Source: Lycium barbarum
Taxonomy: Eukaryota > Streptophyta > Magnoliopsida > Solanales > Solanaceae
Length of the DNA stretch: 64,000 nt
Assembly: GCF_019175385.1 (NCBI RefSeq)
Contig: NC_083338.1
Location: forward strand, 67,116,884 to 67,180,883
Direction: 5' to 3'
Shown here: positions 12,742 through 59,988 of the stretch, piece by piece
Layout: each line of letters begins with the position of its first letter
How positions within the stretch are numbered: the first letter of the stretch is position 1
The notes under the pieces: model-generated
Database searches by the model: none
What the model saw: only the letters and a program-made list of their open reading frames with translations
What the model was told of the DNA's origin: nothing
Made by a program: the position numbers and the translations under genes

Positions 12742-12745
12742 CTTC

Positions 12746-24230: not shown

Positions 24231-24285
24231 CTGCGTGGCATGAAACGCAGCCCCCGAAGAAACGGGGCAGTACGGAATATGTACT
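24231..24285 (-). other. Three-hairpin module, C 5' LTR copy
   Basis: The middle stem here is CCCCCG...CGGGG, better paired than in the 3' LTR copy. Confidence 0.6.
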
Positions 24286-24507: not shown

Positions 24508-24905
24508 GCCGCTTCCGGCATAGTAATGATAGCTCCTTCAGGCAGCCGCTTCCGGCATAGTAATGATAGCTCCTTCAGGCAGCCGCTTCCGGCTCAATAT
24601 CAATAATAGCCCCTTCGGGCAGCCGCTTCCGGCTCAATATCAATAATAGCCCCTTCGGGCATAATAATAATTATAATGTAAACGTAAGTAGTAAATGAAA
24701 TGAAATAGTAAAACCTCGCACCCCTTTCGGAGTGGTTTTGAAAATATCACACTCAGACGTAAGCTGAGGCCGTAGCGCACTCAGACGTAAGCTGAGGCCA
24801 TAGCCCACTCAGGCATAAGCTGAGACCATCGCAGCCCCTTCAGAGTGGTTTTAGAAAGTTTAAATATTAAAATCTCACACCCCCGTCGGAGTGGTTTTGG
24901 AAAGT
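24508..24905 (-). repeat. Mini-hairpin tandem array, C 5' LTR
   Basis: Four GCCGCTTCCGGC units instead of five, and fewer CACCCC...GGAGTGG units than in the other LTR. Unit gain or loss happened after insertion or during the last reverse transcription. Confidence 0.72.
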
Positions 24906-26130: not shown

Positions 26131-26164
26131 TGCGCGTTCGCGCCCCCTTTGGGCGCGTTCGCGC
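26131..26164 (-). repeat. GCGCGTTCGCGC palindrome pair, C 5' LTR
   Basis: Same pair as 21566-21600. Confidence 0.7.
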
Positions 26165-26638
26165 AGCTCTGGTTTTTCTACCTGGACCTTTGTTCAGTAA
26201 AACGGTCATAACTCTTGATTATGATATCGTGTGAGGGCTCACGACCTATGGTTGGAAAGATATTTCAATTATCTACAACCGTTATTTCTGGGTGTTTTCC
26301 CAAATTCCAAACTTATAATGCCGTGTTTGCCCCTCCAAGTCAGATCATCCGAAAACGTTTCCGTAAATCATCCTTTTGGAGTGCTTATGCCCATTTTTGG
26401 CTTATGGGTCCTTCTTAGGACTTGCTCAACTTTCCATATACTATTCGTACGTGTCTTCATATGTCCTTTATAAAACTCTGATGTGTGGGCCCCGCTTAGC
26501 TTGCAGCAACGAGGGCTTTTTGTCAAATAACATATGAACTAATTTACACCACATGGTCTCCAAATGTCATATATATGTTATTATTACCTTCTTATAACAC
26601 AACCTTCATTCCGAACTTAATTTTCAATCTTTTTGTTC

Positions 26639-26727
26639 AGCGCGTTCGCGCCACGTGGGGGCGCGTTCGCACTTTATTGGCCCTTTGGCCTTCTGCGCAT
26701 TCGCGCCACTCGCTGGCGCGTTCGCGT
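26639..26727 (-). repeat. GCGCGTTCGCGC second cluster, C 5' LTR
   Basis: Same cluster as 22074-22164 with small changes (for example GCGCGTTCGCAC). Confidence 0.7.
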
Positions 26728-27098
26728 AGACCCTTGTCCTGGCTTGCCAGTCCAGCTTGTTTCGTCCATATCTCCTTATCCCGATGTCCGATTGAGGAGC
26801 GGTTTGTTGCGTTGGAATCTAAACTTCCCGAATTTCACTTTTGACTTCTTCTTTACTTCAAAAATCTTAATATACTAAAACATATTATTCCTTTTCTATC
26901 CCTAACCTTTCCTCAATTTTACCATGAACCGCCTTGTGAATTTTCCTTTTTACCCTTAGCCTTTCTCAATATTTTCACATCAAAATTTTTATAAAAAACT
27001 TGTGTATTAAACAAGATCAAAAATATGGCCTTGCCCTTAACTTCCCGCAATTATTTCAGATTTTCCGAATATGCAAAATTACGGAATATAACAGAGTA

Positions 27099-29943: not shown

Positions 29944-30227
29944 ATGGTGGACGACAACTGTTCACCTCAGCACAGATTTTCCAAGTCATTAAATAAGAGG
30001 ACCAGCACTTGTTTTATTTCATTTCAACATTACACCACTTGTCACGACCCAACCCCGTAGGCCGTGACTAGTGCCCGAGTTGGACACTCATGTTATCTGT
30101 TAACTGTAGTCATTTGCAATTAGCATGTCATGATCTCATTTGTACATAAAACGGGTAGGACGTTATTTTAAAGCTGTCAAGCTTTGTATGTCTTAGACAC
30201 CTGTCTCCTGAGGAGTTGCACTTTTTA

Positions 30228-30233
<6 letters not shown>

Positions 30234-30278
<45 letters not shown>
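30234..30278. repeat. (TA)n microsatellite, A 3' LTR
   Basis: About 22 TA units; the other LTR has about 12 (38597-38620). Slippage has changed it since insertion. Confidence 0.9.
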
Positions 30279-30279
<1 letters not shown>

Positions 30280-30617
30280 CTACGCAAGCCGACAAGGCTG
30301 CCACGATATACAAAATAATAAACATACATATATATGCAAGTCGACAAGGCTGCCATTACGAATGGGTACGCCCCAAACATAAGTCATAGACATAAAACGC
30401 ATCAACAACTACAAACAAACCCACACCGATGTCCACAGACCTCTAACAGTAATGACCGTATCATATGGCGGGACAGGGCCCCGCCGTACCCAAACAAACA
30501 CATATGAATACAACATAAGGGAGTTATACCACAAGCTAGGCTCCGGAACAAGGGAGCAGTCCAAAATAGCTTAATAGGTATCCTAAGCTGGCGGATCTCC
30601 GAAACGAGCGTCTGTAC

Positions 30618-30672
30618 CTGCGGGCATGAACGCAGCCCCCCGAAGAAAGGGGGTCAGTACGGAATATGTACT
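30618..30672 (-). other. Three-hairpin module, A 3' LTR copy
   Basis: CTGCGGG...CGCAG, CCCCCCG...GGGGG, AGTAC...GTACT. It lies about 580 bases from the LTR 3' end. Confidence 0.6.
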
Positions 30673-30857
30673 GAGCATGTAAAGCTTGAAACATAGTAAT
30701 AGACTTATATTGAGACAAGGTATATAGGACTCAGTGCAACAACCAGAATTTCTTAAAAACATGCCTTTGAACACATTTCGTCTGTATCATTCTCATATCA
30801 GTGTTATTATAGAGTTTTGTAATCAAAGCTGCATAATCATTCCGTATATAACATATA

Positions 30858-31135
30858 TAACGTGTCCCGGCCCTTTAATGAGGGACTCGGTAATTAAAAT
30901 CATAGCACCATAAACATAAACATATACGTGTCCCGGCCCTTTAATGAGGGACTCGGTAATAAGGAATATATGCCCTCCTGGCCACCGTTTCCATGTCATC
31001 ATATCATTATATCACCATATCATCATGTCATCATATATATATATAACGTGTCCCGGCCCTTTAATGAGGGACTCGGTAATAATATAGTAAACATGCGCAC
31101 GAAAACGTATCCTGGCCCGGGACTCAGTGAAGGAT
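30858..31135 (-). repeat. CCCGGCCC...GGGACTCGG dispersed units, A 3' LTR
   Basis: Three near-identical 30-base units (about 30862, 30931, 31049) and a fourth variant (31112), each with a CCC/GGG stem. D and F LTRs hold related CCCGGCCC...GGGACGCGG units. Confidence 0.7.
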
Positions 31136-32789
31136 ATAACGGTAAGCACGAGCAGAATAATAAGCAACCACATATATACAATTCATCTTTTTGGACTCAA
31201 TGGATAAGCAACTAACCAGCTCTAAAGTGTTAAAATAATATTCATTTTCAGTTCATTTCAAGTCTCATAACAACCTATTACAAGAAACGTTTCAGATTTC
31301 ATGTACATATATCACTTTAATTTGGTGTAGCTTTTGAAAGTCAAGAATGTCTCTAATGGTGCAATCCTTTAGGAATAGGAACTTTCATACATTATTCATT
31401 AGTCACTCATATTGTAGGCACATGACAATGGCCTTAATGAAATATAGAATCATAAGTCATGCATGGAACTAGAGAATAGAATTTACCCCAAGGTTCATAT
31501 CGTTTCATACTTACGTCTAGGACATGCCAAAAGAAAGAAGGAATGGGCTTTACATACCTTTAGCATTTAGTTGTATTCTAACTCGTACTTGCTGCCCAAA
31601 AACACTTATCCTATATCAAGATATGAAGAACTACAATTAGTCTACAAGGGAATTCAATACGTATTTTGACGCTCACAATTCCTTTCTAACATTTAAACGA
31701 CGTTTCGTTCGCATTCGAACCAACTAGCGTTACAAGCTAACATTGCTAATCGTTCTTTCATATATTAATCAAAACTTGTTTAAACATGACTTAGGGAGCT
31801 TGGGCAGTCCCTACACCATTCAAACTGTTTCATACACACGGCTAAACAACACACATAGCATTTCCATTCTCACTTAGCAATTTTCCAGTTTTAACTTGCA
31901 ACAACAACAACACGTTTAATGACATTACTTTCATGATTCTTGGAACTGTTTTAACCTCGTTTTCATTCCTACAACAGCCCACCATCATTTCAGTTTCAAC
32001 TTGAATCAATGCACTTTACTTTCACTAAACGTTTGCAACAAGAATCAACATTCAACACACACAAATTCACTTCTAACATCAAAACTGTCCACGGTTTTGG
32101 ACTGCCTATACACTTCAACATAATTCATTTCTTTAACACCTCAATTCACATATTCAACATGCATACAATACACCACAATGTCCATTACAACAACAATCCA
32201 AATGTGACACAAAACAGTCCCTAAATCTCCCCTAAAACAGTCCCTTTTTCACGGCTACAACCCCCTTCCCACGATTTCATGATTTTTATCCGTTTATCCA
32301 ACTACAATACATTCAATCCATTCCCACTACATGTTCAAGAAGATAAAGCATGACTTCATTAGAACCTTCAACACACGGCTCATTTTCAATTCAAGAAAAA
32401 CAGCCCAATATCCAACATGCAACATCACAACCAACTTCTACAATCTTTGTTCATTTACCTATGTTGGTACATATTCAATTCATCAACAATACATGCAAAA
32501 TGAAATCAATCATGACTTCACCTCACTCACGGCTCACTCTCTACTTCAACTACAACAACAATCCAACAACAACATGCATGAACTATACATTCAAATCATC
32601 ATACAACACAAGAACAATAAGCATTCTTACCTTTCAATCTTGTTCTTCACCTTGGCCGAAACTTCAACTCTATTGAGGTGCTACACTTCCTTGTTTCTTT
32701 TCAACAACTACTACCTATTCTTGTACACTAAATGAGGAGTTGATTTGAGGAAGAAAGCTGATTTTTTTTGGATTGAACTCACCTCACCA

Positions 32790-32813
32790 CTCTCGGCTAG
32801 CTCTAGCCGAGAG
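32790..32813 (-). other. 11-bp-arm palindrome in A 3' LTR
   Basis: CTCTCGGCTAG and CTAGCCGAGAG around CT: a perfect inverted repeat in U3 (repeated at 41133-41156). Confidence 0.75.
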
Positions 32814-33221
32814 CTTCTCTTTCTCTCACTATGTATTTCTAACTTGTAAGTGTTGAAATGAGTTGTGGAATGTGGAGTGAATCAGATTTTTCACATTATG
32901 TATTCACTCCATATTTTGGCCATGTGTACTACACTAACTTGGGTCAAGAATCTTTGACCACTCCATTATTCTACACGGCCAAACATGGCTTTAAATAATG
33001 GGCTGATTTTTTTGTTCCCAATCCCACTTATTAATCTAACCATGGTTAATTTAATCCCCATTTTCCATTAATACTTTCATGCCAACGAAATTGTAGGTGA
33101 ATTGTGACTCGAAACGAAACCGGAAGTTAAAATCTCTACTTCGTATCTTAAGATAGTCTTGTATTTAACTTGTCGCGTTTATTTTAAAACGTCCCAATGT
33201 ATGAAAATATGGGATATAACA

Positions 33222-33255
33222 TCCTCACCCCTTTATAACATTCGTCCTCGAATGT
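33222..33255 (-). promoter_or_regulatory. Polypurine tract and hairpin of A
   Basis: The minus strand reads AAAGGGGTGAGGA against the 3' LTR, with the hairpin ACATTCG-AGGA-CGAATGT at 33238-33255. Confidence 0.88.
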
Positions 33256-33341
33256 CGATTTTATCCCGTTGGATTCGATAAGAGTTTTGGGGAGGGTTTT
33301 CCTTATTGCTAACATATAAATTGAGCAGACAATTAACACAA

Positions 33342-36300
33342 TCAAGCAAGGGAGTTTAAATTACCTGTAGATGTGGAAAACAAGTGAAGATATTTCTTTT
33401 TCATCTCCTCCTCAGCCTCCCAAGTCATCTCCTCCCTATTATTGTTCCGCCACAACACTTTAACCGACGCCACATCTTTTGTTCGTAACCTCCTGATTTA
33501 TCGATCAAGTATGGTAATAGGTTGTTCTTCGTATGATAGCTCCTCAGTTACCTGAATATAATCTGTAGGGAACACCCTGGAAGGATCGCCTATATACTTC
33601 CGAAGCATTGACACATGGAAGACCGGATGTACTGCTTCTAAATCTGTTGGTAGATCTAACTCGTAGGCAACTTGGCCTACCTTACGGATAACCTGGTAAG
33701 GTCCAATGTATCTCGGGCTCAACTTCCCTTTCTTTCCGAATCTCATAACACCCTTCATGGGTGACACTTTCAAGAACACCCAATCGCCAACCTGAAATTC
33801 CAAGTGTCGACGTTGATTATCTGCATATGCCTTCTGCCGACTCTGAGCTGTCAGTAATCTTTCCTGAATAAGTTTCACCTTATCAACAGCCTGCTGAACC
33901 ATATCTGGTCCTATCAGCTTAGTCTCGCCAACATCAAACCAGCCTATAGGGGATCTGCCTTTCCTGCCATACAGGGCTTCGTACGGTGCCATCTGAATGC
34001 TAGAGTGGTAACTGTTATTATAAGAAAACTCGATAAGTGGCAAGTGATCATCCCAGCTGCCCCTAAAATCAATGACACAGGCCCGTAACATATCCTGTAG
34101 CGTCTGGATGGTACGCTCGGCCTGCCCGTCAGTCTGAGGATGAAATACGGTGCTGAGACTCACCTGCGTCCCCAATCCCTCCTGGAAGGATCTCCAGAAG
34201 TTAGCTGTAAACTGGGCCCCTCTATCCGAGATAATCGCTGTGGGAACTCCATGAAGTCTCACTATCTCCTTAAGATACAATCGGGCATAATCCTCAGCTG
34301 AGTACGTAGTCCTGACTGGAAGAAAGTGGGATGATTTTGTCAATCTATCAACAATAACCCAGATAGAGTCATACTTCCGCGGGGTGCGAGGGAAACCTGT
34401 GACGAAATCCATATTAATTACCTCCCATTTCCAGGTTGGAATTTCCATCTCGTGCAATAGCCCTCCAGGTTTCTGGTGCTCTATCTTGACCTGCTGGCAA
34501 TTCGGACACTGAGCCACGAATTCTGCTATGTCCTTTTTCATACCATCCCACCAGTACAAACACCTAAGATCATGATACATTGTTGTCGATCCCGGGTGAA
34601 TAGAATAACGAGCACAGTGTGCTTCCCCCATTACCTGCTGCCGTAACCCAGCAACCTCAGGTACACATAATCTGTCTCTGTATCGTAGTACTCCATTGGC
34701 TGACATCTTAAATGGGGTCTCCTCCTTCTGAAGTGCTGTATCTCTATAATGTACCAGAACAGGGTCCTCATATTGACGCTTCTTTACCTCTTCTACAATA
34801 GAGGACTCAGCAACACCTCGCACCAAAACGCTACCATTATCAGAATCAGCCAAACGAACTCCAAGACTAGCTAGCTGGTGAATCTCACGGACTACCTCTT
34901 TCCTTCCTGGTTGTACGCCTGCCAAACTAGCCATAGATTTACGGCTGAGTGCATCTGCTACAACATTAGCCTTCCCTGGGTGATATAGAATATCGACATC
35001 ATAATCTTTCACCAACTCCAGCCATCTCCTTTGCCACAAATTCAGCTCCTTCTGCTTAAAGATATACTGGAGACTTTTATGATCTGTATAAATATCAACA
35101 TGCACGCCATATAGGTAATGTCTCCATATCTTCAAAGCATGTATCACCGCTGCCAACTCCAGGTCATGTGTAGGATAATTTCTTTCATGCTTCCCGAGCT
35201 GTCGGGAGGCATAGGCTATAACTCTGCCGTGCTGCATCAACACGCAACCCAACCCAACACCGGAAGCATCACAATAAACAACATAGCCATCTGGCCCTTC
35301 AGGAAGAGTTAGGACTGTAGTCAACTCATCTTTCAATAATTGGAAACTCCGTTCACAAGCATCGGTCCACTGGAATTTAGCTGCTTTCTGTGTTAGCCTT
35401 GTCAAAGGCGCTGAAATAGAAGCAAACTTTTCTACAAATCTCCTGTAATACCCTGCCAGCCCTAGAAAGCTACGTACCTCAGTAGGCGTCGTCGGTCTAG
35501 GCCAAGTTTTGACGGCCTCAATTTTCTGCGAGTTTACCCGAATACTATCTGCTCCAACAATATGCCCCAGAAATGCTACCGAAGTCAACCAGAATTCACA
35601 TTTAGAAACCTTAGCATATAATTTCTGGTGCTGGAGTATCCTGAGTACCGTCCTCAAGTGATCTGCATGCTCTTCTTCCGATTGTGAATAGACCAGAATA
35701 TCATCAATAAATACAATCACGAACAAGTCAAGGAATGGCTTAAACACCCTGTTCATCAAGTCCATAAACACTGCTGGAGCATTGGTCAGCCCAAAAGACA
35801 TCACTTTAAACTCATAATGCCCGTATCGGGTCCTGAACGTAGTCTTTGGAATGTCTGCTTCCTTTACCCGCACCTGGTGATAACCTGACCGCAAGTCTAT
35901 CTTTGAAAAACACTTAGCACCCTGCAACTGGTCAAATAAATCATCAATCCTGGGGAGGGGATATCTATTCTTTATTGTTACTTTGTTCAGCTGCCTATAA
36001 TCAATACACATCCGCAGCGACCCATCCTTCTTTCTTACAAATAATACCGGTGCGCCCCAAGGTGATGTACTGGGTCTAATGAAGCCCTTCTCTAATAGAT
36101 CTCTCAGTTGCTCCTTCAACTCTTTCAATTCTGCCGGTGCCATCCTGTAAGGAGGAATAGATATGGGTTGAGTGTCTGGCAATACGTCTATAGTGAACTC
36201 TATCTCACGCTCAGGAGGAAGACCTGGAAGTTCCTTTGGAAACACATCTGGAAATTCATTAACCACTGGGACAGATTGAAGAGTCGATGTTTCTGCTTTT

Positions 36301-38191
36301 AAGTTATGCACACGAACCAGATGATAAATATAGCCCTTTCTAACCATTTTCCTTGCCTTGAGGTATGAAATAAACTTACCCCTCGGCGATGCTGTATTCC
36401 CCCTCCATTCTATAATTGGTTCCCCTGGGAACTGAAACCGAACTACTTTGCCTCTGCAATCAACGTTAGCATAGCACGAAGCCAACCAATCCATCCCCAT
36501 AATAACATCGAACTCAGTCATATCTAGCTCTATCAAATCCGCTTTGGTGCAGCGATTACATATGACCACCGAACAATCTTTATATACTAGCTTTGCTAAG
36601 ACAAAATCCCCTACTGGTGTAGCCACCTCAAATGGTTCTATAGATTCAGATTTTATCCCAATTTTACTAGCAACAAAAGGGGAAATATATGATAATGTGG
36701 AGCCTGGATCTATCAATGCATAAACGTCTCGGGAGAAAATCGATAGTATACCTGTGACCACATTTGGCGACACTTCCTGATCCTGCCTGCTGGCTAAAGC
36801 ATATAGGCGGTTTGAAGGACCGCCAGAACTGGAAGCCCCTCCACGGCCTCTGCCACGGCCTGCTGGTGTCGGAATACCTTGCCCCATAGGGCGCATAGCA
36901 ACTGAAGAAGAAGAAGAACCCGCGATAGACCCCGTAGGCTGAGCTGGGCCACCTGCACCACCTCTAAATCGACACTCCCTCATAGTATGGCCCTGACGGC
37001 CACAAGTGAAACAAGCACCAGTCATGAAACGGCATTCCCCTGGATGGCATCTGCCACATCGAGGACACGGGGGTATAGGTGGTCTCATCTGGCCTGAATT
37101 CCTGTGCGTCTGGAACCCTGAAGTCATGGAGCTTTGACCGGCTCCCAAATACCCCGTGCTATCAAACCTCCTACCAGTAAATCGTGAAGGTGCACTCCGT
37201 GCCGGCTGGGAAGGATATCTACTATACTGCTGTTGGGGTTGCCTGCCCCGAAAGTCGCCAGAAGAGTACCCCGCTGATCTAGCCCTCTTATGCTGACCCC
37301 TTTCCTGCTCCCTATCAAATCGGCGCCCTCTCTGTCGATCCTCAACCCCCTGTGCATATGCCTACACTCGGGCGATATCTATACCGGGCTGGGAAGCCAT
37401 TGCCATACAACTATCAATCAAGTAATTATCTAGCCCCATTACGTAACGATGTACCCTATCTGCCATGTCAGCTACCATAGCGGGCGCGTACCTAGCCAGT
37501 GAATCAAACTCGAGGATATAATCTCGAACACTTCTACCATTCTGCTTCAGGTGTATAAATCTGTCAACTCTGGAGGTAGGAAATGACCCAGAAAAGCCTC
37601 TACGAACTCGTTCCATACTGCTGGTGGAGCATCCTCACCCCTGGCCAACTCCCAGGACTCATACCAATTTACTGCTATATCACGCAACTGATATGAAGCC
37701 AATTCAACCGACTCAGTTTCGGAAGCCTTAGTCACCCGCAACGTACGCAGCATCTGTCGAATAAACTCCTGTGGATCCTCTGCGGGCTTTGACCCATAGA
37801 ACTCTGGGGGTTTACAAGTCAGAAAATCACGGACCCTCAAACTGTCGTGTCTATCCGCATAACCACCTTCTAACTCGCGTCTGCGAGCCTGTCCCGATAC
37901 CAACCTGGTCAATAACTGTACTGCGTCACGCATAGCCCTATCTTCCGCCCCTGGCTGGGGAGCTGGAGGCTCGGGTGCTGGAGCCTCAGGAGCTGGTGGT
38001 AATTCTGTCTCCTGATCCGCAGCTGCTGCTGCCCTAGGCTCCTCTGATAATGATGGTGTAGCGGAGCTCGCTGACTGAAGCCTAATCTCAGGCACATATT
38101 TGGAATAAGCTCTAGTGACCCTCCGGGTCCCACTGGTCTCTCCAACTACCGCCTTGCCCTTCTGGGCAGCCGTCGCCTTCTTTGGAGGCAT
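33342..38191 (-). pseudogene. gag-pol: gag-pol of element A (gag, PR, RT, RNase H, IN, chromodomain-like tail); three lesions
   Basis: One polyprotein frame starting at ATG 38191 (MPPKKAT), just after a TTTACAG acceptor-like site. Lesion 1: a 16-bp deletion near 37565-37571 shifts the gag frame. Lesion 2: CAG-to-TAG at 37362-37364. Lesion 3: CAA-to-TAA at 33498-33500, before the chromodomain-like tail (VKVLWRNN...EEMTWEAEEEM), which stays readable to TGA 33342. The open part (33498-37148, 1216 codons) has, by residue: zinc knuckle [14 protein letters not shown] 46-59; protease IDPGS at 146-150; RT with FIDDILVYS 480-488; RNase H D627, E664, D689; integrase H/C zinc residues (H844, C881, C884) and D914, D975, E1011; GPY-type module near 1135. 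All catalytic residues are kept, so the damage is recent. Confidence 0.93.
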
Positions 38192-38302
38192 CGCTGTAAA
38201 CATAACGATCTGTTAGGGAAAGATTTATCCTGATAATACAGCTCTATCGCACGATCTAGAATGAGAAGGAAAGATGACATCCTAAATGTCCTGTAGCTTC
38301 CT

Positions 38303-38336
38303 GTTTATAAATGTGGTGCACAACACATCGATAAAC
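38303..38336 (-). other. Leader stem-loop of A with palindromic loop GTGCAC
   Basis: Arms GTTTAT/ATAAAC with a perfect inner ATGTG/CACAT stem; loop hexamer GTGCAC at 38316-38321. Confidence 0.65.
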
Positions 38337-38381
38337 AAGACTCTACTCGACACGGTCTGTAGACACTCCGAGGATTGAACC

Positions 38382-38393
38382 GCTCTGATACCA
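38382..38393 (-). promoter_or_regulatory. Primer-binding site of A (initiator-Met tRNA)
   Basis: TGGTATCAGAGC on the minus strand, four bases from the LTR. Confidence 0.93.
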
Positions 38394-38585
38394 CTTCTGT
38401 CACGACCCAACCCCGTAGGCCGTGACTAGTGCCCGAGTTGGACACTCATGTTATCTGTTAACTGTAGTCATTTGCAATTAGCATGTCATGATCTCATTTG
38501 TACATAAAATGGGTAGGACGTTATTTTAAAGATGTCAAGCTTTGTATGTCTTAGACACCTGTCTCCTGAGGAGTTGCACTTTTTA

Positions 38586-38620
<35 letters not shown>

Positions 38621-38960
38621 TCCTACGCAAGCCGACAAGGCTGCCACGATATACAAAATAATAAACATACATATATATGCAAGCCGACAAGGCTGCCATT
38701 ACGAATGGGTACGCCCCAAACATAAGTCATAGACATAAAACGCATCAACAACTACAAACAGACCCACACCGATGTCCACAGACCTCTAAGAGTAATGATC
38801 GTATCATATGGCGGGACAGGGCCCCGCCGTACCCAAACAAACACATATGAATACAACATAAGGGAGTTATACCACAAGCTAGGCTCCGGAACAAGGGAGC
38901 AGTCCAAAATAGCTGAATAGGTATCCTAAGCTGGCGGATCTCCGAAACGAGCGTCTGTAC

Positions 38961-39015
38961 CTGCGGGCATGAACGCAGCCTCCCGAAGAAAGGGGGTCAG
39001 TACGGAATATGTACT
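38961..39015 (-). other. Three-hairpin module, A 5' LTR copy
   Basis: Same as the 3' LTR copy except that one C of the middle stem is T. Confidence 0.6.
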
Positions 39016-41132
39016 GAGCATGTAAAGCTTGAAACATAGTAATATACTTATATTGAGACAAGGTATATAGGACTCAGTGCAACAACCAGAATTTCTTAAA
39101 AACTTGCCTTTGAACACATTTCGTCTGTATCATTCTCATATCAGTGTTATTATAGAGTTTTGTAATCAAAGCTGCATAATCGTTCCGTATATAACATATA
39201 TAACGTGTCCCGGCCCTTTAATGAGGGACTCGGTAATTAAAATCATAGCACCATAAACAAAAACATATACGTGTCCCGGCCCTTTAATGAGGGACTCGGT
39301 AATAAGGAATATATGCCCTCCTGGCCACCGTTTCCATGTCATCATATCATTATATCACCATATCATCATGTCATCATATATATATATAACGTGTCCCGAC
39401 CCTTTAATGAGGGACTCGGTAATAATATAGTAAACATGCGCACGAAAACGTATCCTGGCCCGGGACTCAGTGAAGGATATAACGGTAAGCACGAGCAGAA
39501 TAATAAGCAACCACATATATGCAATTCATCTTTTTGGACTCAATGGATAAGCAACTAACCAGCTCTAAAGTGTTAAAATAATATTCATTTTCAGTTCATT
39601 TCAAGTCTCATAACAACCTATTACAAGAAACGTTTCAGATTTCATGTACATATATCACTTTAATTTGGTGTAGCTTTTGAAAGTCAAGAATGTCTCTAAT
39701 GGTGCAATCCTTTAGGAATAGGAACTTTCATACATTATTCATTAGTCACTCATATTGTAGGCACATGACAATGGCCTTAATGAAATATAGAATCATAAGT
39801 CATGCATGGAACTAGAGAATAGAATTTACCCCAAGGTTCATATCGTTTCATACTTACGTCTAGAACATGCCAAAAGAAAGAAGGAATGGGCTTTACATAC
39901 CTTTAGCATTTAGTTGTATTCTAACTCGTACTTGCTGCCCAAAAACACTTATCCTATATCAAGATATGAAGAACTACAATTAGTCTACAAGGGAATTCAA
40001 TACGTATTTTGACGCTCACAATTCCTTTCTAACATTTAAACGACGTTTCGTTCGCATTCGAACCAACTAGCGTTACAAGCTAACATTGCTAATCGTTCTT
40101 TCATATATTAATCAAAACTTGTTTAAACATGACTTAGGGAGCTTGGGCAGTCCCTACACCATTCAAACTGTTTCATACACACGGCTAAACAACACACATA
40201 GCATTTCCATTCTCACTTAGCAATTTTCCAGTTTTAACTTGCAACAACAACAACACGTTTAATGACATTACTTTCATGATTCTTGGAACTGTTTTAACCT
40301 CGTTTTCATTCCTACAACAGCCCACCATCATTTCAGTTTCAACTTGAATCAATGCACTTTACTTTCACTAAACGTTTGCAACAAGAATCAACATTCAACA
40401 CACACAAATTCACTTCTAACATCAAAACCGTCCACGGTTTTGGACTGCCTATACACTTCAACATAATTCATTTCTTTAACACCTCAATTCACATATTCAA
40501 CATGCATACAATACACCACAATGTCCATAACAACAACAATCCAAATGTGACACAAAACAGTCCCTAGATCTCCCCTAAAACAGTCCCTTTTTCACGGCTA
40601 CAACCCCCTTCCCATGATTTCATGATTTTTATCCGTTTATCCAACTACAATACATTCAATCCATTCCCAATACATGTTCAAGAAGATAAAGCATGACTTC
40701 ATTAGAACCTTCAACACACGGCTCATTTTCAATTCAAGAAAAACAGCCCAATATCCAACATGCAACATCACAACCAACTTCTACAATCTTTGTTCATTTA
40801 CCTATGTTGGTACATATTCAATTCATCAACAATACATGCAAAATGAAATCAATCATGACTTCACCTCACTCACGGCTCACTCTCTACTTCAACTACAACA
40901 ACAATCCAACAACAACATGCATGAACTATACATTCAAATCATCATACAACACAAGAACAATAAGCATTCTTACCTTTCAATCTTGTTCTTCACCTTGGCC
41001 GAAACTTCAACTCTATTGAGGTGCTACACTTCCTTGTTTCTTTTCAACAACTACTACCTATTCTTGTACACTAAATGAGGAGTTGATTTGAGGAAGAAAG
41101 CTGATTTTTTTTGGATTGAACTCACCTCACCA

Positions 41133-41156
41133 CTCTCGGCTAGCTCTAGCCGAGAG
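41133..41156 (-). other. 11-bp-arm palindrome in A 5' LTR
   Basis: Identical to 32790-32813. Confidence 0.75.
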
Positions 41157-42905
41157 CTTCTCTTTCTCTCACTATGTATTTCCAACTTGTAAGTGTTGAA
41201 ATGAGTTGTGGAATGTGGAGTGAATCAGATTTTTCACATTATGTATTCACTCCATATTTTGGCCATGTGTACTACACTAACTTGGGTCAAGAATCTTTGA
41301 CCACTCCATTATTCTACACGGCCAAACATGGCTTTAAATAATGGGCTGATTTTTTTTTTCCCAATCCCACTTATTAATCTAACCATGGTTAATTTAATCC
41401 CCATTTTCCATTAATACTTTCATGCCAACGAAATTGTAGCTGAATTGTGACTCGAAACGAAACCGGAAGTTAAAATCTCTACTTCGTATCTTAAGATAGT
41501 CTTGTATTTAACTTGTCGCGTTTATTTTAAAACGTACCAATGTATGAAAATATGGGATATAACACCACTTCTCTCTAAAACCTCTCTCTACATTTACTAT
41601 ACAAGTTTTCAAGGATATTTGAGGATCAATAACATGAAACAAGGTGAATCAAGAGTAACAACATCATCAAAGATCATCCAAGTCAAGAAATCCAAATGAA
41701 GAAAAACTAGGGTTTTGCTCAAAGTGGAGTATTATCAACCAAGGCTTCTTCCTACAACTTCTAAGGTAAGATTCATGATTTTTACACAATGTTTACGGTA
41801 TTAAAGAGTTGAAATACATGGATTGTAGAAAATATGGTCAAGTAAGTCATGAATGATGAATAGTGACATTTTGGGGAATAGTTTGAATTGAATCACGAAT
41901 GTGGTTGTGTTGTGATATGAATGTATTATAATGGTACTAAGATCATGAACTAGACACTTTAGGCGAATGAACGAAGTTGGGTGTTATAACCATGAATGTG
42001 GGTGAATTAGAGGCAAATTTAGGAATCTAGATAATGTGGATGATGTGAATGACTAATGGCCATTGTTATGATATTAATGAAGGTATAGACGCTAGCATTG
42101 GAAGGGAACGTGCAAGTGTAGAATAGTCCGACGAAGAGGTATGTAAGGCTAACCCTTCTTTCATGAGGCATGGTTCTTAGCCAAATTCCTAATTCCTCAA
42201 TATGAGTATGTTGTATTCAAATTATTGACATTCCGAGCTCATAAGCTCACGATCCTTAGCATGTACTACGATCGTACTACGCTCCTCATATGACGAGTAA
42301 GCCTAAGATATAGATGTAGCGATAATGATGATGATAGTGATGACGATGATAATAATAATAATGATGTTAAAGGTGCCTACGGGCTATTATACTTATATGT
42401 GCCTATGAAGGGCTATAATGATGCCTTGAGCTTATAACGCCGGGTAGGATATATGTATATGAATATGTATAAAGTATGTATACGATTTCTAAATGTGCGC
42501 ACACCTCTGCAGATGGTACGGATAACCTTGAAGCCTTGGTAGGGCCAGGTATGATTAACCTTGAGCCTTGGTTGGCCAAGTATGTATGAAACACCGAACC
42601 TGAGGGGTCGGGTATGATATGTAAATGCTATATATATATATACATATATACACGAAATGACTATGCATATAATATGAATATGAATGTGATAAGACTATGT
42701 ATATGAATACGAGCACAAGTATGGTACGAGTAATATTATGGACTACGGATGATGATGTAAGTATACGAGTACGTATGAGAAATGGATATTTCCTATGAAA
42801 TGCAAGTAAGTGCAATGGCGAGCATATTATTGTCTCCCCTCCTAGAGTATTTCATATGTTGTTCATTATGCTTATATATCGATGTTGATCATGCTTTACA
42901 TACTC

Positions 42906-50780: not shown

Positions 50781-53626
50781 TGTCATACCCTAATTTCCCT
50801 AGGGTGTGATGGGCACCCAACCCTTACTTAGGGCCGAGCGAACACTCTGACCCTTAGTGCACACATAATCTTTTGGACTTTTTAAATCCAATAAAAATGA
50901 AATACATAGTACAACTTTCAGAAATATTCCTTCTCGTTGTTCTCAAGTCAAGCAAAATCTGTAATCATATTGAATTCATATCATAACACAAAATGACACA
51001 TCGGCTGATGGAGCCGCTTACAGAACTGACATTCTATACCCACAACTCTGTCTGCAAAGTCTCTAACTTCGAACAAAACATCATAGCATAATACTCTGAC
51101 CTGGCAACACTCCAGAGGCAAATGGAGCTTGCCAACTTCGCTGGAACATCTTCTATAGTGACTGTCACTCATCTAGGCGTACCTGCGTGGCATGAAACGC
51201 AGCACCCGAAGAAAGGGGGTCAGTACGGAATATGTACTGAGTATGTAAGGCATGGAATACAGAAAACAGAACCATAATCGAAACAAACAGAATGGAAAGT
51301 AAGTACATTATTCAGAATTCCCAAAATGTTTATTTTTCAAAACGCAAATCGTGTATGCTGATGTCATGTGTCAGAAGAAGTACAGAAAGTAGGTAAATCA
51401 TCCAGAATATCAAAATGCTTGTTTTCCAAACACAGATCATGTATGCCGACATCAGATATCATATGTGCATATAACAGATCCCGGCCCTTTAGTGAGGGAC
51501 GCGGTGAATCAGAATCATGCATGTCAAATCATATATCATATATGCATATAACAGATCCCGGCCCTCTATTGCGGGACGCGGTAAACAGAATCATCATATG
51601 CCATCCTGGTCGCCATCCCCGTATCGTCATATATACATATAACAGAACCCGGTCCGCAAGGGAGAGGGACGCGGTGAACAATGCAGAGGAAGACGCACGA
51701 TAACAGAACTGGGCCCGGGGCGCAGTAAAGGTCCTACTAAGGCTTGCACGAACAGAGTAGTGCGGAATCATATGCACATAAATCAAGACTCGATATATAC
51801 ATACACTTACCGACATCTGAAGGCTCAGAAACAAGTTTCGGGTCAATCCGACTTAGTATAAGAAAGTTATGAGCGTTTGAAGTACAGAACCTTCTACGAA
51901 CGTTTCCGAAGCCCTTTTTTGGAAAATCAAAGCAACAATCATATCAAGTACCTTTCGGATATCGTTACGGATCAAATCAAATAGAGCTTTTGGAGCCATG
52001 TTTACGTAGCAAAATATATCAAAGACTCAACGGAATAATCAAACGTGCTATCATTTGAAAATCCGAACATTAGTCATATTAATTATCTCTCGGATGCCAT
52101 TCGGAAACGTATCAAATAGAACTTCGTACATCATAGGTACGTATCAAAACCATATGAAATAGCTTATAGAACTCTCTTGAAAACATATCGAAGGTGCATA
52201 AGAATCATAAACAGACTCGGAATCCAAGAATAGAGTAACCCCGAGATGCATATCATACCTTATTTGGCTCTAAGACATGCCAAAAGAAAGAAAGGGTAAG
52301 CCTTACATACCTGTCCCACGTCCAATTAGCTACGCTTATTTGTCCAAACTTGCTAGTCTACATTCAAGAGAATTGACATAATCATTAGACTCATCGACAT
52401 ATACTTGTCTTAGTCTTTCAAATGAATTCATTCATATTCTGCCGAAATTTCGGCAGCATTTTCCCTGTAAATACACCATCCCCGAGAATCTAACTCGGCC
52501 AATTTTATCAACAACAATCCGAGAATTCAACTTGGCCAAATTATCAACAACAATACCAACAATTATATCTCCAACTTCAACAATCATCCCAAAATATATT
52601 CTAACATTAACAACTCTTGTCACACAATTCAATGGCATTTCATTTGTATTCAATTTACTCACATATATTCAAGCTAACACCAATGATTCCACATTCAAGT
52701 ATTAATCCAAAATCATTCTAACATGATTCAAGAATACTTCAAACAATTCACATAATATTCACAACAACCCAATCAACATACAACTTCACCCGAAATCTTC
52801 CAAATTCCACAAGAACACTAACAACACATTTCCTTTCTTCCAAATTCATAAACTACACCAACAATCTATACTTTAGCAATATCATTCATACAAATGTAAG
52901 AAACCATACTAGTGTCACCCATGTTCACATATTTCATGAATTTCATTCATATCCATATGCTACAACATACACAAACCATTCATCACACATGAAAAAGGAG
53001 ATTAAACCTTACCTTCCTCCACTTGTCTTCTCACTCGGCTAGAGTTTACAACTTGCACAACGAATGCTTTGCTCACTCCAACAATTACTCCATGTTAAAG
53101 AGGACCTTCCAATTAGTTGGAATACTAGAAGAAATAAATTTTTTGATCAATTTCCATAGAGCCAAATTTGGCCAACCATGGCTGAATGTGAAGCTCTTTT
53201 GTTTTTTCTCCTCTAAGTTTCTCAAGTCATAAAAGATGAAATTGTCTAGAATTTCTTCCACTTGCTCATATATATATTTAGTCCCATCAAATAGAATGTG
53301 GACACATGTCCTCTTTCTTGAAGCTTCTCAAATTTTCTTAAATTAAAAAGATGACTTAATCTTGGTTAGTCATCACTCTTTTCTTTTTTTTTTTTTGTTC
53401 AAGACTTATAAGTTTCCATAATTCACTTCTAACCCCAAATTTTTCCTTAATATTTCCATGAGCCACCTTATGAATTTTCCTTTTTACCCCTAGCCTTTCT
53501 TAATATTTCCACATCAATAATGTTCATAAGCAACTTGTATATTAAACAAGATCAAAATATGGCCTTGCCCTTAACTTTTCGCAATTATCTTGAATTATCC
53601 GAACGTACAAAATACGGGCCATAACA
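50781..53626 (-). repeat. 3' LTR of element F
   Basis: Plus-orientation ends are TGTCATACCC and GGGCCATAACA. It lacks 152 bp found in the 5' LTR (junction at 52918/52919). Module 51183-51238; CCCGGCCC...GGGACGCGG units 51477-51735; donor-like sites near 52307 and 53010. No gene lies within. Confidence 0.92.
51183..51238 (-). other. Three-hairpin module, F 3' LTR copy
   Basis: CTGCGT...ACGCAG, a CACCCG...GGGGG middle stem, AGTAC...GTACT. Confidence 0.6.
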
Positions 53627-53663
53627 TCATCCCCCCCTTTAGAACATTCGTCCTCGAATGTTC
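53627..53663 (-). promoter_or_regulatory. Polypurine tract and hairpin of F
   Basis: AAAGGGGGGGATGA on the minus strand against the LTR; hairpin GAACATTCG-AGGA-CGAATGTTC at 53642-53663. Confidence 0.88.
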
Positions 53664-55694
53664 GACTGATCTCATAGGGTGTTATAATACTTCGGGAGGG
53701 TCCTTCATATAGTTGTCCTTTTCTTCATGCACATTCCTTATATTTTACCCTATTTTCCTTTGTAATCGAACTTCTCAGTCTTTACCTGAATCCTCATTCC
53801 GTGTCATGGGTTTTCTAACCCACTGTACCAAGTTAGTATCCTTGTCCTTCCCAGGTTACCGCTTCTTTGTTATTGTTTCGTCACAACACCTTAACAGAAG
53901 CCACGTCTTTGGTACGCAATCTTCACTTGATGATCCAATATGGACACAGGCTATTCCTTGCTCTCATTTATCTACAGTATTGCAGTCCAGTTACTCTTAT
54001 GGTAACCTATGATCCGAGTTCGCTTATCTTCTTAGTTCGCAACATCTTAAGTTCTTGCTACAACTTTTTCTTTACCTCTTTCCCTCACATTTCTCGACAC
54101 AAGTATACTTGTCTTTGATTTCTTTGTACTGGCGTTCGTTTCGCCCATCGTTATTCCTTGTTGACCCTCCGATATGGACTTCTTATAATCACAATTGGAT
54201 ATAACTTCACGTTGATGGTTCATATAATTTCATAACGTATATTCTCATGCTCCGTATAATTAATGGTCCATGAACTATTTTCTTGTATCCGATGAACTCT
54301 TTCATTTCATTCATAGACACTGCGTTCTTTCTGTCTTTCAAAAAAAATTTCCCAGACTACCAATTGTTGACACTTTTGTTATAATAGTCGTTATCATCCG
54401 AAATATCCTTTGAATCCTATCCTCCTTTCTGTTCGTGTCGGCCTCACGGTACACTCATTGTCAATTCGTTTTTACTTCTTTCATGTATCCTCCTGATGTG
54501 CCGATATATTTTGAGCTCTGGCCCCGAGCTAATAAGTTTTCCTCCTCTGGAGCTTGAAAGTGTTGCGATTCCTTTAGAGTCTGATATAATATGTTCTCCC
54601 CCCCCCCCCCCTTTTAAGGGGCTCCTTATACGCCAACAGTCCTTTTGTGAAATCTTCGTTTATACCTTACTCCTCATCTTTCTCTCCGTCTCTGTGCATA
54701 ACATATCGAAACTCCTTACCACGAGTTTTTCTTCCATTTTGCGCCTATATCATCATTCTTGTCAATATTCCTATATCTTCCTATCCACTATTAGTCCTTT
54801 GTTCATTTAGCTCACTTACTCGTAATTCCTCTTAACTACATGTTGGTGTTGCAGTTGTGCGTCCATATTTCCCAAGCGTCCCGCTACCTTTGCTTGCAGC
54901 ACAGAATCCTTACAGCTCACACTCTCTTTATCCTTACTCATCGAATCTTTAACTATGTTTATGATGCCACGACCGAGTGGTCTCTAATGCATGTTCCTTG
55001 CACTTCATTCCATTTTCTCTAAGATCAAATCTCTCTTAGACCTTACATGAATTCTCATTCCATACCATTAATTTCCCAATCAGCAGTGTCGACTCATCAT
55101 CCTTTCAGGAAAGCATTTCCATGTCCGAGGCAACCACATTAATATAGCTGCACATTTTATTCCTTTATATACCTTTCAAGGACCTAAATCTCCTAGCATC
55201 GTCGCAAGGCCTAATCATTCTTTTTCTTATTTCACATCCCTCATCATAGTGACTATTCCTTTAGCCCCACTTATTGGAATCGGTTCTCCAGCCTCACACA
55301 TTCCTCTTTTGTTCTATATTACCACTCTTTATCCTCTTCGCATGCCTACTTTGAGTTCTTACCCAAATAGTCTCGTGCTTTGCTGGTAGTTTCTATCGGG
55401 AGCTTCACTCACCGAGGTTTCTTACCTTTCATTTTCTTCCGACACTTTGATCTCTTTATTTCCCATCTACTCACTCACTTTCTTTTCCAAATATCGTTGT
55501 ATTAGAACTTTCCAATCTTAGCCTGTAGTGAAAATAATAGCAGCTTAGCTTATAACACTTGCACCATTTATTTTTGTTGTCACTTGAGCTTCGGTACCCT
55601 TACTTGATTAATGCCTTCTTCACCGTAGCACCGGTCGCTGGGACACACATCACATGCCCACCGATACATTCACATGTGGGATATCGTATGCATT

Positions 55695-55771
<77 letters not shown>

Positions 55772-55982
55772 TATCAACTAGCCCACAAAATACCTCCAAA
55801 CGCTATTCAAGCCTACCCTAATTCCAGAACTATGATGCACTCTCTGTCTTTTCACCAATCCAGTCTGCCTCGTCCTACGCGACCTCTTATGGTCTCCAAC
55901 CATCCCGTATATTTTAGTTTCCCTTGGGATACCCTAGCTTCCCATTTGTCTCTTATGTCTGGATTTATAGAATTTCTTGCAC
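53664..55982. other. F interior, long non-coding part
   Basis: Pyrimidine-rich on the plus strand, with a run of about 16 C (54598-54613). The stretch near the polypurine tract matches C. The 99- to 104-codon plus-strand frames here are antisense to the element and show no motif. I see no gene. Confidence 0.6.
55696..55770. repeat. (CA)n(TA)n microsatellite in F interior
   Basis: About 9 CA units followed by about 28 TA units. It gives rise to the HTHTYIYIYI stretch in the 172-codon frame at 55559-56077, which is therefore not a gene. Confidence 0.92.
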
Positions 55983-56081
55983 ACTTCCCAGGGGGTCACC
56001 CATCCCAACATTTTTCTCACCTTAGCACGCTTAACCTCAAAACTTTGATGAAATTCGGTGCATTAATGCTGATATAATCGC
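55983..56081 (-). pseudogene. 5S rRNA-derived segment in element F
   Basis: Best copy of the three. The minus strand aligns without gaps over 99 positions to plant 5S rRNA as I recall it, with about three quarters matching. Kept blocks include TTAATGCACCG, GTTAAGCGTGCT (A-box region) and GGGATGGGTGACC plus CCTGGGAAGT (C-box region). Most differences are transitions. Same sense as the element, about 900 bases downstream of the primer site. Too diverged to be a working rRNA gene. Confidence 0.86.
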
Positions 56082-56896
56082 GTCCACTTCCTCGCATGAC
56101 ATTTATTACATGATCTGGAGCGAATCGAAGTCTTACAGATTCCGAGACATTCTCGTAACACGTCCTTTCCTTTACAATTACTATTTTACCCTTTTCAATT
56201 CCCAGTGTTCAGTTTTCACTTATGTGTATGACTACTTCCTGTCCTGGACTTCCAGATTCCCGATGGTAGCGAACATACCTTCGTCGCCGTTACTTATGCA
56301 TACTCGATTATTAGCCAGTTCGGACTTCCACTCACCATCCTTACCTAATAATCCACAGCAAAACTGATTGTCGACTTTCTCTGATTCCTTCAACAGACCT
56401 TGCTCCTACTAAGCCTCGAATGTCATCCATTTTAATCCTTCAGACTACTAACCGTCTTCCTCACAATCATTTTTCACGCCATACCCAAATCCATAACCCT
56501 TCTGAAATAACACTCCTCACTTGTTGTCTATTTACGATATTTCCTTTCCACACTTCTTCCTGTTAGGCGTTTCTTACTAAATGACCTGATTTTGAAAGAT
56601 TTTTGGCAGAATCTCCTTTACAATTCTTACTATTCAAAATTTGTACGCAACAAATATCAACAATGCCTCACAGAACATGCGGCCATATGACACATTCCAG
56701 TCATCCAGTGCCCCCAGTTCCAGGTAACAGAACAAATATATCAAGACTTACTTTTATGACTTTCCATATCATCATTCACCTCCTTCCGTCGTATGTAAGT
56801 CTTATATAAGGGATTTCATTTTCCTATGACTTAGCTCTATCGCACGATCTAAGACAGAAAGAAGGTCAACAATCCCTAGATGCCCCGTAGCCTCCT
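56082..56896. other. F interior between 5S-like segment and leader, no gene
   Basis: Matches C closely from TTACAGATTCCGAGACATTC on. No coding signal. It ends in the conserved leader (GCTCTATCGCACGATCTAAG near 56837). Confidence 0.6.
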
Positions 56897-56930
56897 GTTT
56901 ATAAATGCGGTCGGCTTCACACCCATAAAC
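56897..56930 (-). other. Leader stem-loop of F, loop palindrome broken
   Basis: Same stem as C, but the hexamer reads GTCGGC on the plus strand (56910-56915) instead of GCCGGC, so self-pairing loses its symmetry. Confidence 0.55.
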
Positions 56931-56976
56931 AGGACTCTACTGGACACGACTTTGCCGACAACCCCTAGGACAACCT

Positions 56977-56988
56977 GCTCTGATACCA
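56977..56988 (-). promoter_or_regulatory. Primer-binding site of F (initiator-Met tRNA)
   Basis: TGGTATCAGAGC on the minus strand, three bases from the LTR. Confidence 0.92.
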
Positions 56989-56991
56989 CTT

Positions 56992-59988
56992 TGTCACAAC
57001 CTAATTTCCCTAGGGTGTGATGGGCACCCGACCCTTACTTAGGGCCGAGCGAACCCTCTGACCCTTAGTGCACACATAATATTTTGGACTTTTTAAATCC
57101 AATAAAAATGAAATACATAGTACAACTTTCAGAAATATTCCTTCTCGTTGTTTCAAGTCAAACAAAATCTGTAATCATATGGAATTCATATCATAACACA
57201 AAATGACACATCGGCTGATGGAGCCACTTACAGAACTAACATTCTATATCCACAACTCTGTCTGCAAAGTCTCTAACTTCGAACAAAACATCATAGCACA
57301 ACACTCTGACCTGGCAACACTCCAGAGACAAATGGAGCTTGCCAACTTCGCTGGAACATCTTCTATAGTGACTGCCACTCATCTGGGCGTACCTGCGTGG
57401 CATGAAACGCAGCCCCCAAAGAAAGGGGGTCAGTACGGAATATGTACTGAGTATGTAAGGCATGGAGTACAGAAAACAGAACCATAATCGAAACAAACAG
57501 AACGGAAAGTAAGTACATTATTCAGAATTCCCAAAATGTTTATTTTTCAAAACGCAAATCGTGTATGCTGATGTCATGTGTCAGAAGAAGTACAGAAAGT
57601 AGGTAAATCATCCAGAATATCAAAATGCTTGTTTTCCAAACACAGATCATGTATGCCGACATCAGATATCATATGTGCATATAACAGATCCCGGCCCTTT
57701 AGTGAGTGACGCGGTGAATCAGAATCATGCATGTCAAATCATATATCATATATGCATATAACAGATCCCGGCCCTCTATTGCGGGACGCGGTGAATAGAA
57801 TCATCATATGCCATCCTGGCCGCCATCCCCGTATCATCATATATACATATAACAGAACCCGATCCGCAAGGGAGAGGGACACGGTGAACAATGCAGAGGA
57901 AGACGCACGATAACAGAACCTGGCCCGGGGCGCAGTGAAGGTCATACTGAGGCTTGCACGAACAGAGTAGTGCGGAACCAGATGCACATAAATCAAGACT
58001 CCATAGATACGTACACTTACCGACATCTTAAGGCTCATAAACAAGTTTCGGGTCAATCCGACTTAGTATAAGAAAGTTATGAGCGTTTGAAGTACAGAAC
58101 CTTCTACGAACGTTTCAGAAGCCTTTTTTTGGAAAATCAAAGCAACGATCATATCAAGTTCCTTTCGGATATCGTTACGGATCAAATCAAATAGAGCTTT
58201 TGGAGCCATGTTTACATAGCAAAATATATCAAAGACTCAACGGAATAATCAAACGTGCTATCATTTGAAAATCCGAACATTAGTCATATTAATTATCTCT
58301 CGGATGCTATTCGGAAACGTATCAAATAGAACTTCGGACATCATAGGTACGCATCAAAACCATATGAAATAACTTATAGAACTCTCTTGAAAACATATCG
58401 AAGGTGCATAAGAATCATAAATAGACTCGGAATCCAAGAATAGAGTAACCCCGAGATGCATATCATACCTTATTTGGCTCTAAGACATGCCAAAAGAAAG
58501 AAAGGGTAAGCCTTATATACCTGTCCCACGTCCAATTAGCTACGCTTATTTGTCCAAACTTGCTAGTCTACATTCAAGAGAATTGACATAATCATTAGAC
58601 TCATCGACATATACTTGTCTTAGTCTTTCAAATGAATTCATTCATATTCTGCTGAAATTTCGGCAGCATTTCCCCTGTAAATACACCATCCCCGAGAATC
58701 TAACTCGGACAATTTTATCAACAACAATCCGAGAATTCAACTCGGCCAAATTATCAACAACAATACCAACAATTATATCTCCAACTTCAACAATCATCCC
58801 AAAATATATTCTAACATTAACAACTCTTGTCACACAATTCAATGGCATTTCATTTGTATTCAATTTACTCACATATATTCAAGCTAACACCAATGATTCC
58901 ACATTCAAGTATTAATCCAAAATCATTCTAACATGATTCAAGAATACTTCAAACAATTCACATAATATTCACAACAACCCAATCAACATACAACTTCACC
59001 CGAAATCTTCCAAATTCCACAAGAACACTAACAACACATTTCCTTTCTTCCAAATTCATAAACTACACCAACAATCTATACTTTAGCAATATCATTCATA
59101 CAAATGTAAGAAACCATACTAGTGTCACATTATCTTCTTCAACATTCCCATAATGATCACAACTTCATTTCAAGTTATCAAACCTTCATTTTCATCATGA
59201 AATCCACAACTACAACAATCAAAATACTAACTAAAATCAATTCATCTTTTCTACACAACACTATGCCATTCGGCCACCACCCATGTTCACATATTTCATG
59301 AATTTCATTCATTTCCACATGCTACAACATACACAAACCATTCATAACACATGAAAGAGGAGATTAAACCTTACCTTCCTCCACTTGTCTTCTCACTCGG
59401 CTAGAGTTTACAACTTGCACAACGAATGCTTTGCTCACTCCAACAATTACTCCTTGTTAAAGAGGACCTTCCAATTAGTTGGAATACTAGAAGAAATAAT
59501 TTTTTTGATCAATTTCCATAGAGCCAAATTTGACCAACCATGACCGAATGTGGAGCTCTTTTTTTTTTCTCCTCTAAGTTTCTTAAGTCATAAAAGATGA
59601 AATTGTCTAGAATTTCTTCCACTTGCTCATATATATATTTAGTCCCATCAAATAGAATGTGGACACATGTCCTCTTTCTTGAAGCTTCTCAAATTTTCTT
59701 AAATTAAAAAGATGACTTAATCTTGGTTAGTCATCACTCTTTTCTTTCTTTTTTTTTTGTTCAAGACTTATAAGTTTCCATAATTCACTTCTAACCCCAA
59801 ATGTTTCCTTAATATTTCCATGAGCCACCTTGTGAATTTTCCTTTTTACCCCTAGCCTTTCTTAATATTTCCACATCAATAATGTTCATAAGCAACTTGT
59901 ATATTAAACAAGATCAAAATATGGCCTTGCCCTTAAATTTTCGCAATTATCTTGAATTATCCGAATGTACAAAATACGGGCCATAACA
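56992..59988 (-). repeat. 5' LTR of element F
   Basis: Pair of 50781-53626 with the extra 152 bp (59129-59280). Module 57393-57448. Otherwise very similar by eye. Confidence 0.92.
57393..57448 (-). other. Three-hairpin module, F 5' LTR copy
   Basis: As in the 3' LTR copy, with a longer C-run in the middle stem. Confidence 0.6.

Follow-up and report, generated by a model that had tools for sequence, protein, structure and literature searches.

In 5S genes, boxes A and C bind TFIIIA, which in turn brings TFIIIC, TFIIIB, and Pol III, and an internal 5S-like segment, the plant 5S rRNA mimic (P5SM), is also found in the Pol II transcript of plant TFIIIA genes. Among LTR elements, the LARDs (for example, Sukkula of barley) combine long LTRs with a non-coding interior, a primer-binding site (PBS), and a polypurine tract (PPT), while the TR-GAG class consists of gag-bearing elements without pol. 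We know of no 5S promoter in a LARD, and none was found in the literature searched.

In the literature consulted, the LTR elements with a Pol III promoter are miniature ones that have it within their LTRs, and this small size has been attributed to Pol III processivity (PMC10886601). The best known of these is Cassandra, given as 565–860 bp in length (PMC10886601) or up to ~900 bp (PMC10853983), whose 5S-derived boxes have been presented by Kalendar and colleagues as RGTTAAGYRHGY, 18 nt, RRRATRGGTRACY (PMC7215508); the length of Helenus and Ajax is likewise said to be limited by Pol III processivity (PMC10886601). Here we describe a 5S-derived segment that lies in the interior of large non-autonomous elements. 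Such an arrangement is not named in the titles and abstract openings of the open-access literature searched, and we regard the novelty of an internal 5S module as provisional. We think it fairly probable that the segment is a DNA-level type-1 Pol III promoter or TFIIIA docking module that was captured from the host 5S and has been retained by non-autonomous elements.

The 5S-derived segment and the elements that carry it

In the 64,000-nucleotide stretch of Lycium barbarum DNA that was analysed (the window), positions 55983–56081, read on the minus strand, align without gaps to positions 5–103 of a plant 5S reference, with 76 of 99 sites identical; compared with the host's own 5S (taken from locus L001), 75 of 96 sites are equal. 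The top local score of this segment is 53, and the maximum reached anywhere in the window by 200 dinucleotide-shuffled 5S queries is 18. At the gathering threshold, Rfam returns a single match in the whole window, RF00001 at 55970–56079 on the minus strand, with 38.0 bits (E 2.9e-4), a score that lies exactly at the 38-bit cut-off of that model. Box A (GGTTAAGCGTGC, 56025–56036, minus strand) and box C (GGGATGGGTGACC, 55994–56006, minus strand), recognised by the Cassandra box pattern, are separated by 18 nt. When this pattern was sought across the window with up to three mismatches, three matches were found where 0.01 would be expected, in the segments of the elements we call F, B, and C; all three have the 18-nt spacing, with no mismatch to the full pattern of box A, spacer, and box C in F and B and one in C. 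Chance similarity to 5S is rejected on the shuffled-query maximum and on this expectation.

The segment at 55983–56081 belongs to element F, a non-autonomous Ty3/gypsy element of 9.2 kb (50781–59988, minus strand) that is delimited by an LTR pair with the TSD ATATT on both sides and has pol of another element, E, which is on the plus strand, around it. The LTRs of F, ~97.5% identical to each other, were placed by self-comparison, TSD, and PBS/PPT at 56992–59988 (5′, with the sense strand being minus) and 50781–53626 (3′). The PBS, TGGTATCAGAGC (56977–56988, minus strand), is identical to the Cassandra PBS as printed in PMC7215508, and the approximate PPT from the element annotation lies at 53631–53640 (minus strand); because these two features place the sense of F on the minus strand, the 5S segment is in sense orientation, ~900 nt past the PBS. 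A preliminary description of this DNA had proposed a 5S-derived segment, internal and on the sense strand of an element of ~9 kb with ~3-kb LTRs. The identities, the shuffled-query controls, the box pattern, and the threshold-level covariance match on the minus strand bear out the derivation, and the LTRs, TSD, PBS, and PPT of F bear out the setting and the size.

That description had placed the segment in F, which is correct, but as a single element this understated the matter, as there is a large group of carriers. Besides F, two complete non-autonomous elements were delimited in the window; these, named B and C, both carry the segment on the same strand as F, and with these and the many genome copies described below, the segment being a one-off passenger of F is rejected. 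Element B (9.4 kb; 6461–15905, minus strand; TSD ATATA) has LTRs at 6461–9628 and 12746–15905 and its 5S-derived segment at 11145–11241 (minus strand; boxes at 11157–11199), identified by the box pattern and by nhmmer with the plant 5S reference (E 5.3e-8); RF00001 gave no 5S match to this segment even at E up to 10. Element C (7.9 kb; 19171–27093, minus strand; TSD GAGTA) has LTRs at 19171–22528 and 23823–27093, an interior of only ~1.3 kb, and its segment at 22820–22917 (minus strand; boxes at 22831–22873, one mismatch), identified by alignment, the box pattern, and RF00001, to which it scores 31.6 bits, below the cut-off of 38 (E 1.1e-4 on a 501-base stretch). One LTR of C also contains a tandem array of 40-bp repeats (19817–20053). 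These three are the only 5S-like sites in the window, and each lies between LTRs; a tRNA scan returned no match.

A coding relative, element D (30040–41564, minus strand), has in common with B, C, and F the leader and the PPT region. Its pol and gag ORFs (33498–37148, 1,216 aa, and 37547–38203, 218 aa, respectively) are separated by a gap, so this copy may be non-intact; Pfam recognises RT and integrase-end pieces in it, and the gag match is below cut-off. Neither self-comparison nor 5S alignment over the window revealed a 5S segment in D, which is rejected as a carrier of the module. Searched by tblastn with the gag and pol of D, the interior of F yielded nothing and those of B and C only matches of 9–29 residues with E above 0.3. 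Elements B, C, and F each have an LTR pair with TSD, a PBS, and a PPT, and gag and pol are absent from their interiors, an organization that is LARD-like.

Origin and spread of the module

Twelve changes from the host 5S are common to B, C, and F and therefore indicate one capture for these three, whose common origin is, at the level of the sequences compared, established. Two of the 12, a C-to-T and an A-to-G located at box A and directly ahead of it, are shared (as judged by eye) by two copies elsewhere in the genome, L099 and L100, making a single origin of all copies likely and a second capture less so. These same two copies match the host 5S from position 1 onward at 93 of 103 and 96 of 104 sites, respectively, which suggests that the capture began at 5S +1 and ended near position 104.

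The core pattern AAGCRTGC-N19-RGATGGGT has 9,788 exact matches in the 1.67-Gb assembly (5,012 + 4,776), a count that includes true 5S genes (47 scored), and the same pattern reversed has none. About 100 of these places were listed, all on contig C1, and four of them have a host-like middle when inspected by eye. Two 5S gene groups were seen, a regular array on C6 and, separate from it, a second and irregular group on C11 at 94.07 Mb (the L001 locus) with truncated 5S pieces between the genes. The segment is present in thousands of genome copies, and those examined sit in large non-autonomous elements. Outside the host, two patterns had no match in viral contigs, where 110 stretches matched an RT piece and none was confirmed, and prokaryote genome contigs likewise gave no match.

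Eight further copies (L099–L106) were picked by eye from the ~100 places listed of the 9,788, so as to span different middles. Among them the segment stands behind several types of leader and LTR, at a distance from the PBS of 553 nt (L106), 1,340 nt (L103), 1,599 nt (L102), 1,993 nt (L105), or 2,227 nt (L100); no PBS was found in the stretches fetched for L099, L101, and L104. In L101 and L105 the 5S follows a gag-protease-like frame by ~290 nt and ~255 nt, and this frame is open for 420 aa and 432 aa, respectively, in the stretches fetched. Element L105 lies between two LTRs (93.3% identical over 2.6 kb) and has Pfam matches to gag and zinc knuckle, whereas its match to the protease family RVP_2 (E 0.34) does not reach the cut-off; residues 4–168 of the D pol ORF align to it, and the copy is broken near the start of gag, where a stop interrupts the region of gag similarity. 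No RT or integrase match lies downstream of the frame in L105, so that between its LTRs this element has a gag-protease frame and lacks RT and integrase, which is TR-GAG-like, while B, C, and F are without gag. In L101, too, the 3 kb downstream show no RT or integrase, and an LTR pair was not observed for this copy. The 3-kb LTR of this pol-less gag-protease element (L108/L105, C1:26602300–26609300) is apparently a mosaic, in part C-like and at its inner end resembling the LTR of E.

Given the known occurrence of 5S sequence in Cassandra, it is worth asking whether the module reached these elements through Cassandra, either in the form of its LTR or by a template switch with its RNA, rather than directly from 5S rDNA. 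The box pattern, the spacing, and the PBS are the same as those given for Cassandra (PMC7215508), and the homology that extends beyond the 5S between lineages, 287 nt in L099–L105, is roughly as long as the LTR of Cassandra. On the other hand, GATGGGTGACC followed by the PBS at 40–100 nt has no match in the genome, Cassandra being known here by description, and no LTR-like direct repeat containing the 5S was found among the best four self-matches of each of the eight sampled stretches. In one of these (L103), a 37-nt pair of simple sequence flanks the 5S on both sides. Overall, we consider a Cassandra origin very improbable and favour capture from the host 5S itself.

Box conservation and the RNA fold

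Copies of two lineages were collected with queries that contain no 5S. For the F lineage the query lay 270 nt away; 40 of 4,003 candidates were scored and 30 loci, F included, were fetched. The whole segment is present in 26 of the 30, a 31-nt part in one, and in three it is absent; the strict Cassandra box pattern occurs in 18 of the 30, all 18 being among the 26 complete ones, a proportion that counts against docking. In the 25 copies compared (L041, with the 31-nt part, L047, L057, and L063, where the segment is absent, and F itself being left out), diversity (pi) is.076 in box A,.053 in box C,.142 between them,.114 in the rest of the 5S, and.173 in the flanks. The boxes differ from the flank with p 1.2e-4 and the non-box 5S differs from it with p 2.9e-4; the difference between boxes and the rest of the 5S reaches only p.097, which likewise counts against docking. 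With CG/CHG sites excluded and the patch described next kept out of the flank, the box effect remains (p 3.6e-5). Also to be counted on the other side, values no higher than that of the whole A–C span occur in 66 of 679 flank spans, and a second patch directly upstream of the 5S (56116–56200, minus strand; pi.085, compared with.177 and.202 in the upstream and downstream flanks) is about as conserved as the 5S itself. This patch contains a small inverted repeat, CGAGA...TCTCG, and was not picked up in the blastn comparison of B and F.

For the B lineage, with a query ~105 nt away, 40 of 2,505 candidates were scored, and 20 of the 39 non-B matches were fetched. The segment is present in 19 of these loci and the strict box pattern in only 16, again a point against docking, and the diversity analysis took all 20, including the one without the segment (L084). 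Variable sites number 8 of 25 in the boxes, 51 of 75 in the non-box 5S, and 239 of 313 in the flank (boxes versus flank, p 9e-6); the non-box 5S and the flank are separated by a rank test (p.039) but not by Fisher's test (p.14). Across the eleven copies formed by B, C, F, and the eight picked ones, the search pattern leaves 9 box positions free, of which 1 varies, compared with 49 of 60 in the non-box 5S (p 7e-5), where the mean pairwise difference is.33; this comparison is to be read with the intact cores that the eight copies have by construction. In the window trio alone the figures are 1 of 25 and 23 of 71 (p.003). These copy sets overlap partly in B, C, and F and are not independent, and the low diversity of two further sets was not counted because their queries contained 5S and are biased. 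In the copies compared, variation in boxes A and C is demonstrably lower than in the flanks (two lineages) and than in the remaining 5S (eleven copies), so that their designation in the preliminary description as the best-kept parts stands. Decay as fast as that of the flanking DNA with no fold kept, which the same description named as counter-evidence, is borne out by half: a fold finds no support, as described below, and the non-box 5S of the B lineage changes at about the rate of its flanks, but the boxes change more slowly.

These data bear directly on the idea that the segment is a functionless 5S fragment, its box conservation arising from few lineages and from the choice of copies. Selfish elements often carry passengers, and the whole segment does decay at near the flank rate between C and F, where the 5S (93 of 110 sites) is no better kept than the upstream rest of the interior (800 of 918), as does the non-box part in the B lineage; in the block shared by B and F, too, the 5S (74 of 101) and the flank (102 of 159) differ with only p.14. 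But the boxes are slower in two lineages that were chosen without 5S, and across eleven copies whose non-box 5S has diverged as far as noted above. Furthermore, same-strand similarity between the interior of B and that of C is confined to the leader, a 53-nt block, the 5S, and the PPT region (with one additional 29-nt match on the opposite strand), and the shortened C still has its 5S. A passive passenger is, in our judgement, unlikely. No exact match shared by all three elements is longer than the 17 nt of box C (TGGGATGGGTGACCCCC); the one at the PBS measures 15 nt. A block of 53–73 nt also recurs in B and F, whose interiors can otherwise hardly be aligned, and in C (11595–11670 and 56601–56673, minus strand).

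A different function is that of an RNA mimic, in which a 5S-like fold in the genomic RNA would bind L5 or TFIIIA, in the manner of the P5SM of TFIIIA pre-mRNA, and affect splicing, export, or packaging. The RF00001 match and the sense orientation of the segment are in keeping with this, as is helix III, where all 8 pairs stand in F and C and two of those in F are kept via changes on both sides relative to the plant 5S reference. However, helix III is broken at two pairs in B, and the probability of retaining all pairs given the changes is.05 in C,.21 in F, and.38 in B. Pairing is not in excess in 29 sequences with the host 5S included (87.1% versus 87.3% when shuffled), nor clearly so in 12 divergent ones (79.9% versus 79.2%, a percentage reached by 137 of 500 shuffles), in which the covariation score is reached by 45 of 500. 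Folding z-scores of the three window copies, −0.28 to 0.74, say little because the value for the plant 5S reference is −0.10. In addition, conservation tracks the DNA boxes, which coincide only partly with the helices. The preliminary suggestion of L5 or TFIIIA binding and of a fold in the genomic RNA finds no support, as far as the fold is concerned, in either the 29 or the 12 sequences; RNA fold as the main constraint is rejected, and we regard an RNA mimic as quite improbable. Since the boxes change more slowly without support for a fold, a role at the level of DNA is indicated.

A putative docking module in light of known systems

How might such a module have come to be kept? We envisage that roughly positions 1–104 of a host 5S gene were captured by a non-autonomous Ty3/gypsy element and that the module was then inherited by a large group of elements, with exchange of leaders and LTRs, coming to lie after gag-protease where that frame was kept and within a non-coding interior elsewhere. 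It would act as DNA, with boxes A and C, 18 nt apart, being kept for TFIIIA/TFIIIC docking. Docking would be the constant part, providing open chromatin for LTR-driven synthesis of Pol II genomic RNA, a boundary, or protection from silencing. Because the module is located downstream of the 5′ LTR and PBS, it cannot itself make genomic RNA.

Binding of TFIIIA/TFIIIC and transcription by Pol III are inferred, and the least certain point is whether the outcome would be a short Pol III RNA or mainly open chromatin. A TTTT lies within the segment in 9 of the 29 sequences of one set (A2), in 16 of 30 in the first set, and in 2 of 11 across lineages, and since such terminators, which some sublineages tolerate, would stop Pol III early, we give docking more weight than a long Pol III RNA and lean to it. 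Where the segment is without TTTT, an RNA of ~300 nt is possible, as a TTTT lies 245–248 nt past box A in 17 copies of the F lineage, out of 25 (30 examined) where a script found that box.

More tentatively, these elements may follow a dual-polymerase design, in which the LTR drives synthesis of genomic RNA by Pol II and a selected internal 5S-type Pol III unit, sitting where pol once began, is passed among non-autonomous lineages with different LTRs and leaders. The separate function of this unit would be that of a TFIIIA/TFIIIC-docked anti-silencing or boundary element, or of a source of its own short RNA. If the docking reading is true, a selected internal module in thousands of copies, within elements of 7.9–9.4 kb where measured, would separate the benefit of a promoter from the synthesis of genomic RNA, and factor docking would be a way for non-autonomous elements to persist; the genome, for its part, would gain thousands of potential TFIIIA/TFIIIC sites.

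It is informative to set these elements beside the systems they most resemble. With P5SM they share a 5S-like segment located inside a Pol II transcript, if transcription of F by Pol II is assumed; they differ in that the fold is without support here and in that the segment of F lies between LTRs and not in a TFIIIA gene. A captured TFIIIA gene has no support, as three translated stretches of F gave no C2H2 Pfam match. Like TR-GAG elements, L101 and L105 have a gag-protease frame with no pol found downstream, and they differ in carrying a 5S module ~250–300 nt downstream of that frame. With the LARDs, B, C, and F share long LTRs, a non-coding interior, a PBS, and a PPT.

The closest likeness is to Cassandra, which is also a non-autonomous plant LTR element and has in common with B, C, and F the PBS TGGTATCAGAGC and 5S-derived boxes A and C with 18-nt spacing and variable bases between them (PMC7215508, PMC10853983). 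In contrast, the 5S of Cassandra lies in both LTRs, whereas here it is internal, between LTRs of ~3 kb; Cassandra is shorter than ~1 kb, whereas B, C, and F measure 7.9–9.4 kb; and a gag-protease reading frame survives in some relatives of the elements described here. Helenus and Ajax (‘TRIMp3’) are likewise presented as non-autonomous LTR elements with a captured promoter of a small-RNA gene, but that promoter lies in the LTRs of elements of 311–1263 bp (PMC10886601), whereas in the elements described here the putative promoter lies downstream of the 5′ LTR and the PBS.
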